Source of the DNA: a virus
Direction: 5' to 3' (one strand)
IMG/VR virus record: IMGVR_UViG_3300025669_000132
Location: 1-32,403 of that record
DNA: 32,403 nucleotides
Positions 14,394-29,700 of the stretch are shown here, piece by piece; within the stretch, counting starts at the first letter, position 1, and each line of letters begins with the position of its first letter. Below the pieces are notes generated by a model. The model did no database searches. It saw only the letters and a program-made list of their open reading frames with translations, and was not told the origin of the DNA. The position numbers were made by a program, and so were the translations under genes.

Positions 14394-14914
14394 TCAATCT
14401 CCTTTAACTTTTTATTCCCCAGTTGCAGGTTATTTGTTTTGGTATTTTCTTTTTGAGTTTGAGCGATAGCCCGGTATGATCTTTGAAAATTAGATGCTAT
14501 TACAGAATTAAGAGTATCAATGTTTTCATTTGACCAAACCTTGAGTTCGCTAGGAGATCCTACGGCTCTTTGAACAAGAGGTGATAACTTATCCCAACAT
14601 TCAATTGTTTGATAATAAGCCTTACCAAGGACTTTCTTGACAGTGTTCCATGCTTCGAGCTCAGTAGGTTGATCTGGATTATTGAGATTATACATCTGTT
14701 CCTTGATTGCACCGATTATGGGGAAAAATCCCTTAGTATCGTTTGAGATATAAATTTCTACTGAACCCATAACATTTTGGTAAATATCGTTTTTAAACAT
14801 CATTCCCCAAAGAGTGCCTAGGTTTATCTTTTGTGTTTCTGATAATGATTTAAAGTGTTGAGGATATGCAACCTCTAAAATTGCGAGTACTTTCATTGTT
14901 TCTGATTTATTCAT
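14390..14914 (-). CDS. Helicase-loader-like replication protein (G39P-type N-terminus)
   Basis: 174 residues from the ATG at 14914, which has GAGGAG seven bases upstream; the longer frame-open version overlaps the previous gene without a site. The N-terminus MNKSETMKVLAILEVAYPQH resembles the G39P-type helicase loader/inhibitor family of Gram-positive phages. Helical segments follow (GFFPIIGAIKEQMYNLNNPD), then a C-terminal Gln/Lys-rich tail. It follows the replisome organiser with an 8-bp overlap, the usual order of organiser then loader. No replicative helicase is encoded nearby, so it may load the host helicase. Confidence 0.6.
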   Translation of the reverse strand: MNKSETMKVLAILEVAYPQHFKSLSETQKINLGTLWGMMFKNDIYQNVMGSVEIYISNDTKGFFPIIGAIKEQMYNLNNPDQPTELEAWNTVKKVLGKAYYQTIECWDKLSPLVQRAVGSPSELKVWSNENIDTLNSVIASNFQRSYRAIAQTQKENTKTNNLQLGNKKLKEIE

Positions 14915-15593
14915 TGTCAAACTCCTCTCTTTGCATTTCTTCTTTTGCCATTTCGGCAAATGTCTTAACATTGTTACCTTTGTTTGTTCCTTGATTGTTC
15001 TTCTCCCAAGTCCGAACACAAGCCTTCCAGTCTTTAACTTTATTCTTGCCAATCATCCAACCTTTAGCAGAATAGAAGTCAACGAATCTTTCAGGATCGA
15101 CAGTATTATTTCTTTCTTGGCAATAATCGTCAACTTCTTGAATTGTTGGGGGTACAAATCTTTTGACTTTTTTATTTGCATTTGCATCTCTATTTATATC
15201 TTCATTTTCATTTTCATTTTCATCTTCACACTTGGGGTTCCTTATGGAACTCCCATGTGGAGTATCCATATGGTCTCCCATATGGGAAACACCTTTAGAG
15301 CCTTTACCAGCAAGGTTTTTAAGCCTATTTTTTTTATAAGACGCTCTTTTTTCCACTTCATCATCCAATCTTTTGTTAAAAAACAGTCCTTTTTTATCTA
15401 AGGAAAATTTAGATAAAACAACATCATCATTACACACAGAATTGACCTGTTCTTTTGTCAAGTGTCCGATTTGATGTTGCATACAAAGTAATGTTATATA
15501 TTTACCTTTTTGTTCGTAAGGCATAAAGATAGTTCCGACAAGAAAATCAGAGGAATAAAATAAAAAAGCTGGATCGTTATTAGTTTTAGCCAT
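14907..15593 (-). CDS. Phage replisome organiser / replication initiator
   Basis: 228 residues. The N-terminal winged-helix-like domain reads DPAFLFYSSDFLVGTIFM, then MPYEQKGKYITLLCMQHQIG, as in DUF1376/DnaD-type phage initiators. A low-complexity acidic linker (CEDENENENEDINRDANANK) joins it to a C-terminal domain with FVPPTIQEVDDYCQERNN, FVDFYSAKGWMIGKNKV and DWKACVRTWEKN. That ending is a hallmark of phage replication initiators. It should bind the origin and recruit the loader encoded next. Confidence 0.8.
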   Translation of the reverse strand: MAKTNNDPAFLFYSSDFLVGTIFMPYEQKGKYITLLCMQHQIGHLTKEQVNSVCNDDVVLSKFSLDKKGLFFNKRLDDEVEKRASYKKNRLKNLAGKGSKGVSHMGDHMDTPHGSSIRNPKCEDENENENEDINRDANANKKVKRFVPPTIQEVDDYCQERNNTVDPERFVDFYSAKGWMIGKNKVKDWKACVRTWEKNNQGTNKGNNVKTFAEMAKEEMQREEFDNE

Positions 15594-21353: not shown

Positions 21354-21629
21354 ATGCAGAAATTTTTAGAAGAGAACGACATAATTGTAACTAAAGACGA
21401 TATAGAACGTATGCTGGAAGATAACCCAATAGCAATGGAACTGAATGACTATGGATTTAACGAGTGTCTGGAATATGTTACTGATGGTCTGTTACAAGAA
21501 GTAAGGTGGAGTAATATAATACAGAAACTAGTAGAACAGTTTATCGAAACAAAAGACGATGTGGCATTAGAAGAAATTGGAGCCGAAGAAGAATGGCAAA
21601 ACGTGAGAGACGGATGGAGGAGACCATGA
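21354..21629 (+). CDS. Small acidic protein, unknown
   Basis: 91 residues, start supported by AGGAGGTATAAA-ATG. Strongly acidic (EENDIIVTKDDIERMLEDNP; ETKDDVALEEIGAEEEWQNV). The last codons (GWRRP*) are the ribosome binding site of the next gene (GGAGGAGACC-ATGA), with a 4-bp overlap. No family recognised. Confidence 0.65.
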   Translation: MQKFLEENDIIVTKDDIERMLEDNPIAMELNDYGFNECLEYVTDGLLQEVRWSNIIQKLVEQFIETKDDVALEEIGAEEEWQNVRDGWRRP

Positions 21630-22600
21630 AAGGATATAAAATATTTAATGAAGATTGGAAATGTCAAGGCTTCCAATACGAAGTAGGAAAAACATATGAG
21701 ATGGATGGAGGGATCGAACTATGTAGAAGGGGATTTCATTTTTGTGAAAAACTAGAAGAGTGCTTTAACTTTTACGAGGCGGTTACCTGGAATCACATTG
21801 CAGAAGTTGAAGCTCTTGGAGCCACTAAAACGGATGGAAACAAAACAGTAACGAATAAGATTAAAATAATCAAAGAAATACAGTTAAAAGATGGTGTCAA
21901 CGGGTCTGATGGTGTCAACTGGTCTGGTGGTGTCAACGGGTCTGATGGTGTCAACGGGTCTGATGGTGTCAACTGGTCTGATGGTGTCAACGGGTCTTAT
22001 GGTGTCAACAGGTCTGGTGGTGTCAACAGGTCTGATGGTGTCAACAGGTCTTATGGTGTCAACAGGTCTGATGGTGTCAACTGGTCTTATGGTGTCAACA
22101 GGTCTTATGGTGTCAACAGGTCTGATGGTGTCAACAGGTCTGATGGTGTCAACTGGTCTTATGGTGTCAACTGGTCTGATGGTGTCAACGGGTCTGATGG
22201 TGTCAACAGGTCTGATGGTGTCAACTGGTCTTATGGTGTCAACTGGTCTTATGGAATATTAAATTCATATGGAGTAGATGGACAATTGTTTTTATCGAAT
22301 AAGCCGAGAACACACGGGATGTTTGGTACAACTATAACTGAAGGAAGATTTAACTTAGTTATGAATATCTTTAAGGATAATCTAGGCGGGTGGAACCCAA
22401 CATTTAACAACCTAAAATCACTTTATGTTAAGCATGGTTCTGATTGGAAGAAAACACCAATCCCAAAAGCAGGAGAAATATCAAAAGAAGAAGCGTGGGA
22501 AGATATGCCAATAGTCGCAATTGAATATTTAGAAACGCTCCCCGAGTTTGATGCAGATATGTTTTTTGAAATAACGGGGATAGATAGGAGGAGACCATGA
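21626..22600 (+). CDS. Repeat protein A: hypervariable hexapeptide array between conserved domains
   Basis: 324 residues from the ATG at 21626, chosen because GGAGGAGACC precedes it. Residues 1-88 are a conserved domain (GFQYEVGKTYEM, CRRGFHFCEKLEECFNFY, KTVTNKIKIIKEIQL). Residues 89-208 are 20 uninterrupted copies of [D/Y/G]-G-V-N-[G/W/R]-S, then YGILNSYG. Residues 209-324 are a second conserved domain (GWNPTFNNLKSLYVKHGS, MFFEITGI). The N-terminal domain resembles a family common in Firmicutes phages; function unknown. A period of 6 is compatible with a beta-helix rung, which would stack the two variable positions into ladders. A paralogue is at 28663. Confidence 0.85.
   Translation: MKGYKIFNEDWKCQGFQYEVGKTYEMDGGIELCRRGFHFCEKLEECFNFYEAVTWNHIAEVEALGATKTDGNKTVTNKIKIIKEIQLKDGVNGSDGVNWSGGVNGSDGVNGSDGVNWSDGVNGSYGVNRSGGVNRSDGVNRSYGVNRSDGVNWSYGVNRSYGVNRSDGVNRSDGVNWSYGVNWSDGVNGSDGVNRSDGVNWSYGVNWSYGILNSYGVDGQLFLSNKPRTHGMFGTTITEGRFNLVMNIFKDNLGGWNPTFNNLKSLYVKHGSDWKKTPIPKAGEISKEEAWEDMPIVAIEYLETLPEFDADMFFEITGIDRRRP
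21890..22249 (+). repeat. 18-bp tandem repeat array A, 20 units
   Basis: Twenty exact-length 18-bp units of form xxT-GGTGTCAAC-xGG-TCT. Fifteen of 18 positions are invariant. Variable codons are GAT/TAT/GGT (unit codon 1) and GGG/TGG/AGG (unit codon 5). No synonymous difference occurs in the whole array. In frame with repeat protein A. Confidence 0.95.
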
Positions 22601-28662: not shown

Positions 28663-29700
28663 ATGGAAGGATATAAAGTTTTTGATGAAAATTGGCAGTG
28701 TAAAGGTTTTCAGTACGAGGTTGGCAAAACTTACGAGATGAAGGAGGAAATAGAAGTTTGCCGAAATGGGTTTCACTTTTACGAGAGAATGGAAGATTGT
28801 TTTAATTATTACTCAGCTGTGTCTTGGAATCATATTGCAAAAGTTGAAGCACTTGGAAAAACTAAAACAGATGGTTCCAAAACGGTTACCAACAAGATTA
28901 AAATAATTAAAGAGGTGCAACTTGCAGAGGGTATCAACAAGTCAAGGGGTATCAACAGATCAGAGGGTATCAACAGATCAGAGGGTATCAACAGATCAAG
29001 GGGTATCAACGAGTCAGAGGGTATCAACTGGTCATGGGGTATCAACAAGTCATGGGGTATCAACAAGTCAGGGGGTATCAACAAGTCAGAGGGTATCAAC
29101 GAGTCAGAGGGTATCAACAGATCAAGGGGTATCAACAGGTCAGAGGGTATCAACGGATCAGAGGGTATCAACAGATCAAGGGGTATCAACAGGTCAGAGG
29201 GTATCAACGGATCAGAGGGTATCAACGGATCAGAGGGTATCAACGGATCAGAGGGTATCAACAGATCAAGGGGTATCAACAGGTCAGAGGGTATCAACGG
29301 ATCAGAGGGTATCAACGGATCAGAGGGTATCAACAGATCAAGGGGTATCAACAGGTCATGGGGTATCTTAAATTCTTGCGGGGCAGACCATCAACTGTTC
29401 CTTTCAAACAAGCCAATATCTTATGGCATATTTGGCGAGGAAGTAAGCGAGTCAAAATTTAACGAAGTTAGTGGTATTCTTAGAAATAAATTAGAGGGCT
29501 GGAATCCAACCTTTAATAACTTAAAATCACTTTACGTCAAGTATGGTTCAGAGTGGAAGAAAACACCGATACCCGAAGCTGAGGAAATTTCGAAAGAGGA
29601 AGCATGGAGAGATATGCCAAAACAAGCGATTAGGTATTTGAAAACACTAGAAGAATTTAACGCAAATATGTTTTTTGAGATTACAGGGATAAGGGTATAA
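28663..29700 (+). CDS. Repeat protein B: second hexapeptide-array paralogue
   Basis: 345 residues, AGGAGGATTAAC-ATG upstream. The N-terminal 88 residues align without gaps to repeat protein A (about three-quarters identical). The array (89-232) is 24 units of [E/R/W/G]-G-I-N-[K/R/E/W/G]-S, then WGILNSCG. The C-terminal domain (233-345) shares GWNPTFNNLKSLYVK, KKTPIPEAEEISKEEAW and MFFEITGI. The variable residues differ from A (more charged: E, R, K). Function unknown; two divergent copies in one genome suggest different binding partners. Confidence 0.85.
   Translation: MEGYKVFDENWQCKGFQYEVGKTYEMKEEIEVCRNGFHFYERMEDCFNYYSAVSWNHIAKVEALGKTKTDGSKTVTNKIKIIKEVQLAEGINKSRGINRSEGINRSEGINRSRGINESEGINWSWGINKSWGINKSGGINKSEGINESEGINRSRGINRSEGINGSEGINRSRGINRSEGINGSEGINGSEGINGSEGINRSRGINRSEGINGSEGINGSEGINRSRGINRSWGILNSCGADHQLFLSNKPISYGIFGEEVSESKFNEVSGILRNKLEGWNPTFNNLKSLYVKYGSEWKKTPIPEAEEISKEEAWRDMPKQAIRYLKTLEEFNANMFFEITGIRV
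28927..29358 (+). repeat. 18-bp tandem repeat array B, 24 units with higher-order blocks
   Basis: Units of form xxG-GGTATCAAC-xxx-TCA. Codon 1 is GAG/AGG/TGG/GGG; codon 5 is AAG/AGA/GAG/TGG/AGG/GGA. Units 11-24 follow a 54-bp block pattern (AGA, AGG, GGA) with extra GGA units, so blocks were duplicated as wholes. Array A uses GTC and TCT where B uses ATC and TCA throughout: each array has been homogenised separately. Confidence 0.95.

Follow-up and report, generated by a model that had tools for sequence, protein, structure and literature searches.

Probable unit turnover and diversifying selection at two residues per repeat in the hexapeptide array of a phage DUF7666 protein

The window analyzed here, a 32.4-kb IMG/VR virus record from a tailed phage, carries a gene (gene A) in whose product an array of near-identical hexapeptide units separates an N-terminal DUF7666 domain from a conserved C-terminal domain. 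We conclude that this repeat region, array A, is probably a fast-turnover coding array that is homogenized by recombination within the array and is under diversifying selection at two residues per unit, which would together make up a modular binding surface. The evidence comes largely from homologous arrays, in which the two variable codons have accumulated nonsynonymous change almost exclusively, and from close relatives in which units have been gained, lost, and swapped.

The terminase, portal, and head genes of the window lie on the minus strand, and the plus strand encodes an exonuclease, a RusA-like resolvase, an SSB, and a DNA-repair exonuclease. Gene A and its paralogue, gene B (Table 1), are both found among these replication and recombination genes, a location that fits an intracellular role better than a role as tail fibers. 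The reading frame of gene A has a further in-frame ATG upstream, at 21593. No near DNA match to the window was found among named phages. Elsewhere in the window, an imperfect 6-bp repeat (TTTTCA, 15169–15228) encodes, on the minus strand, an Asn/Glu/Asp-rich segment (ENENENED) within an ORF at 14907–15593.

Table 1. Features of genes A and B in the window
Feature	Coordinates	Strand	Details
Gene A: N-terminal DUF7666, hexapeptide repeats, C-terminal domain	21626..22600	+	324 aa
DUF7666 (PF24703) domain of gene A	21626..21892	+	E 1.9e-30 and 4.7e-33
Array A, xGVNxS	21890..22249	+	20 x 18 bp; only codons 1 and 5 vary
Degenerate edge units, YGILNS-YGVDG	22250..22282	+	Synonymous changes; edge of concerted evolution
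C-terminal domain of gene A (FNN...EAWxDMP...PEFDAxxFxxITGI)	22283..22597	+	Common to hexapeptide relatives
Gene B: paralogue of gene A, same architecture	28663..29700	+	345 aa
Array B, GINxSx	28930..29361	+	24 x 18 bp
Edge unit and C-terminal domain of gene B	29362..29697	+	

A reading of the DNA by itself had described array A as 20 in-frame units with 15 of 18 positions invariant and every difference amino-acid changing, and this description is exact. The invariant positions are 3–12 and 14–18; codon 1 is GAT in 12 units, TAT in six, and GGT in two, and codon 5 is AGG in eight, TGG in seven, and GGG in five. Each of the four variant alleles changes the amino acid: codon 1 varies at its first and second positions, codon 5 at its first only. 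Tandem Repeats Finder (TRF) also recovers the array (period 18, 20.3 copies). Directly 3′ of it the sequence continues TAT GGA ATA TTA AAT TCA TAT GGA GTA GAT, and these degenerate units carry synonymous changes (GGA for GGT, TCA for TCT), so that the pattern holds for the interior of the array and not for its edge.

From the lack of synonymous change in array A, the sequence-only reading had inferred either homogenization with selection on two codons or recombination among a few unit types. Its conclusion stands by way of the homologues, but the argument from array A alone does not, as four alleles are too few. Under random non-stop mutation, with each allele arising once, the probability that all four are nonsynonymous is 0.26–0.33. 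In a small number of simulation runs with duplication and loss of units, protected framework amino acids, and neutral variable codons, the probability that an array with four nonsynonymous alleles lacks any synonymous one was ~0.01–0.08. Array A by itself is therefore weak evidence for diversifying selection, barely beyond chance. It is also compatible with youth, meaning amplification of a single unit not long ago, with the four variants as the earliest random mutations to appear.

To compare synonymous and nonsynonymous change across related phages, we gathered relatives from IMG/VR and metagenome-assembled genomes with a profile of the C-terminal domain, for which no Pfam family was found. 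Most of the readable relatives bear such arrays, and removal of duplicates and of one degenerate relative (L050) left 23 arrays with 360 units. Pooled over these, 117 alleles at the variable codons 1 and 5 are nonsynonymous and 3 are synonymous, whereas the four framework codons have 15 of each kind. The synonymous share expected at the variable codons is 16%–24%; the p-value, approximate because alleles are treated as independent, ranges from 1e-6 to 5e-11 with the choice of transition bias. By another measure, 117 of 135 pooled alleles (0.87) are nonsynonymous, compared to 46%–53% expected and 0.45–0.51 in the neutral-turnover simulation. The comparison is made within the same codons of the same units, so array age or a local hotspot would act equally on both classes of change. 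The excess is that expected of repeats under diversifying selection, and the earlier proposal of homogenization plus selection on two codons is supported.

Youth had been put forward as the reading to adopt should homologous arrays prove rich in synonymous differences. Such richness is confined to degenerate relatives such as L050, where synonymous changes are abundant; the 23 arrays repeat the pattern of array A on different framework codons. Youth would also reduce synonymous and neutral nonsynonymous alleles alike, which leaves the ratio of 117:18 unexplained. We regard it as improbable for array A, and for the family as a whole it is already disfavored.

Most of these arrays come from metagenome assemblies, in which the order and number of repeats extending over several hundred base pairs may be wrong. 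Collapse in assembly could hide units, but on its own it would not explain why synonymous variants are lacking. Scans with DNA patterns for three-unit arrays, incomplete in that the patterns lacked the valine codon GTG, mostly returned known loci again or unrelated collagen-like arrays. One DUF7666 relative (L033:1751-2848) has a different hexapeptide, GGN-x-I-x, with two varying residues (D/Y/N and R/S/W/G) and an invariant framework. A single contig (IMGVR_UViG_3300047548_001261; L054 and L064) has two stretches of six to seven identical AGINVS units with zero variation.

Framework codons are near-uniform inside each array and differ from array to array. Across arrays the majority codons include all four for valine, the three main ones for glycine, both for asparagine, and five for serine, so that there is evidently no long-term bar to synonymous change. 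The same is seen within the window: array B varies at the same two residues as array A, with one synonymous pair (AGA/AGG), and its framework uses ATC and TCA where array A uses GTC and TCT. That two frameworks differ within one genome implies that exchange takes place within arrays. These observations also bear on whether selection on the DNA or RNA itself, through codon usage, RNA structure, or a protein-binding repeat, fixes the framework. The framework of array A is indeed invariant at the DNA level, as such selection would have it, but every array has framework codons of its own, and edge units deviate; we give this account almost no credence, the least of those considered.

Synonymous mismatches are concentrated at one end of the arrays, at a rate of 32/51 (63%) in the 3′-terminal unit, 8/67 in the next, and ~1% inside. 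No such effect is seen at the 5′ end. Unequal exchange or slippage would be expected to leave an edge effect of this kind, which supports concerted evolution. The arrays also behave as a concertedly evolving tandem array does in that units of one array resemble each other more than they resemble homologous units in other arrays. Similarity between neighboring units does not exceed that of random pairs (lag-1 identity 0.104 versus 0.110); hence, the arrays are not simple fresh expansions, which counts further against youth. The variable residues show no lag-3 signal, so a three-unit periodicity is unsupported. Array B does hold a repeated five-unit block, and the array of one relative (L010) a repeated eight-unit block. 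The association between codon 5 and codon 1 of the next unit (7.5 s.d.) exceeds that between codons 1 and 5 of the same unit (3.0 s.d.), a difference that would follow if breakpoints frequently lay within the longer of the invariant stretches.

Recombination among a few unit types, the other process proposed from the DNA of the window, is seen in comparisons of close relatives. Two records (L015 and L016) with flanks 99.8% identical over 3 kb have arrays of 12 and at least 19 units, respectively, of the same kinds. Cultured phages are among the relatives with DUF7666. Such relatives occur in 115 records of Rheinheimera phages, where the array is built of NTGxx units and the protein closes with a C-terminal motif resembling that of the window gene. 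Among Rheinheimera isolates that are ~99.7%–99.9% identical nearby, the gene differs by R to Q, NR to DW, and NR to DR changes, by a DQ/NQ exchange, and by a single synonymous change back to the consensus codon; Barba28A lacks one unit, and Barba19A carries an extra one along with a changed start. Most of these changes yield unit types already in the array. In Pseudomonas phages, arrays of SNTGxxSAA, mostly with 9–28 units, consist essentially of YQ, NR, DY, and DR in scrambled order, with little synonymous change in the framework. The arrays of P7869 and 5371 mix two framework types, a pattern that is consistent with recombination. Linked to the window genes through DUF7666 and carrying repeats of another kind, the Rheinheimera and Pseudomonas proteins show the mode of evolution to be general; their repeats need not be homologous to those of array A. 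The turnover in unit number described here is that of relatives, a single genome representing the window's own species.

Several deposited Pseudomonas records (L080, L081, and hits H180–H188) start or stop inside the repeat array, which suggests that assemblies break there. In the deposited sequence of Pseudomonas phage TC7 (L087), the frame shifts inside the SNTGxxSAA array, through either a real frameshift or a sequencing error, so that the protein as deposited closes with a repeat unrelated to it.

A targeted mutator that hits the variable codons, such as a diversity-generating retroelement, would likewise produce focused amino-acid variation in a phage gene, and the clustering of changes at the first positions of the two codons (36 and 40 extra alleles) is in its favor. 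However, third-position changes exist as well (8 and 9 extra alleles) and are nearly all nonsynonymous (e.g., AAC/AAA and GAC/GAA), and a mutator would also leave synonymous changes, of which the variable codons have only 3 in 120. The isolates' preference for existing unit types speaks against it too: variation moves as units inside the array, unlike in diversity-generating retroelements. No reverse transcriptase (RVT_1) is found in the record, although this may represent only a fragment. Together these points make a mutator very unlikely.

The variable residues are drawn from a small palette. Residue 1 is mostly N, D, or Y (also E and K) and residue 5 W, G, or R (also E and K), and 21 of 22 arrays include W among their residues at codon 5. 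Neutral drift would not repeatedly arrive at tryptophan, with its single codon. Heterogeneity might instead be selected only against misfolding, aggregation, or array instability, the residues recognizing nothing. This alternative competes with the recognition part of our explanation and not with its evolutionary part, and it draws on the restriction of variation to two positions and on the fact that the arrays are so far without a partner. Against it, a narrow palette (W/G/R and N/D/Y; YQ/NR/DY) is reused on three scaffolds, a recurrence that heterogeneity alone should not call for. We consider this alternative possible, if unlikely. That the two residues of each unit form a repeated binding surface under diversifying selection seems to us the most likely reading.

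Database searches of the window genes give few functional leads. Genes A and B match DUF7666 at 105.6 and 106.9 bits (cut-off 27), and searches with Pfam, NCBIfam, PHROGs, and PADLOC returned only this domain and compositional collagen or tail-fiber matches; the scores to Collagen (PF01391), 14.2 and 22.8 bits, are below its cut-off of 27.2. A structural model of DUF7666 resembles the rifampin ADP-ribosyltransferase Arr (Foldseek probability 0.98, but E 0.017–0.021). An Acinetobacter relative carries the annotation "putative ADP-ribosyltransferase," but a profile search of PDB sequences with DUF7666 did not find Arr. The structural likeness is suggestive of an Arr-like fold, which the sequence profile does not confirm. 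Two AlphaFold2 models leave most of the array unfolded (pLDDT ~25–35), and for this reason we make no claim for a beta-solenoid. Among the papers searched, none names DUF7666 or describes the phage family, and the main text of two papers on Rheinheimera phages makes no reference to the pentapeptide gene.

In a Salmonella P22-like phage and a plasmid-listed relative (L078 and L088), DUF7666 genes have either ral (restriction alleviation) or a gene for superinfection exclusion nearby, which hints at a role in phage–host conflict. E. coli genomes searched with the Salmonella-phage DUF7666 gene gave no match. DUF7666 is also annotated in the giant-virus proteins A0A3G5A9H0 and A0A3G5AHW0 (Hyperionvirus, Sylvanvirus).

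The evolutionary logic of these arrays is already known from protein repeats and TAL effectors. Protein tandem repeats undergo accelerated horizontal evolution, in which new copies diversify fast under relaxed and positive selection and homogenization is tied to unit turnover (Persi, Wolf, Koonin 2016, PMC5120217). The phage arrays are alike in their fast within-array diversification and turnover-linked homogenization; they differ in that only two residues per unit vary, with almost no synonymous change, in many arrays with different framework codons. Given this general tendency, the pattern does not demand a role in specific recognition. TAL effectors are characterized by two variable residues with small alphabets in otherwise near-constant repeats (PMC5577687). 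As in the phage arrays, near-identical repeats vary in number and order between strains, but TAL effector repeats have 34 residues and each binds one base, whereas the phage units have five, six, or nine residues. We reject array A, with its six-residue units, as a TAL effector; the likeness is one of evolutionary mode, with no sequence homology claimed.

The closest comparison is with other phage proteins of the DUF7666 family, a Pfam family without a described function. Like the window genes, the Rheinheimera "pentapeptide" proteins have the N-terminal domain followed by a repeat array, but the window arrays are hexapeptides with a C-terminal domain of their own. Rheinheimera and Clostridioides relatives match Pentapeptide_2 (PF01469) over their NTGxx arrays, with matches in L077 and L065, whereas A and B, with a period of six, have no match to it.

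Under the explanation we favor, recombination or slippage within the array of this replication-region protein would lead to units being gained, lost, and copied onto one another, and this turnover would hold the four framework codons to a single DNA sequence. At the two variable positions, selection would favor new amino acids out of a limited repertoire (D/Y/G and R/W/G in array A), and favored variants would then be shuffled into new orders. The two residues may provide a surface that recognizes a repetitive or variable target, of host or phage origin, with unit order and composition under arms-race selection. A bolder and rather doubtful extension is that the DUF7666 proteins of phages serve modular recognition through an alphabet of residue pairs, evolved on at least three scaffolds, in which unit order would spell the target, recombination would rewrite it during phage–host conflict, and an ADP-ribosyltransferase-like N-terminal domain would be delivered.

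The pattern first noticed in array A widens to a testable family of phage proteins, in which two residues of each repeat diversify and the rest stays nearly identical in DNA, on three scaffolds. If the arrays bind unit by unit, they would constitute a natural modular recognition system with tractable hosts (Rheinheimera BAL341, PA14).
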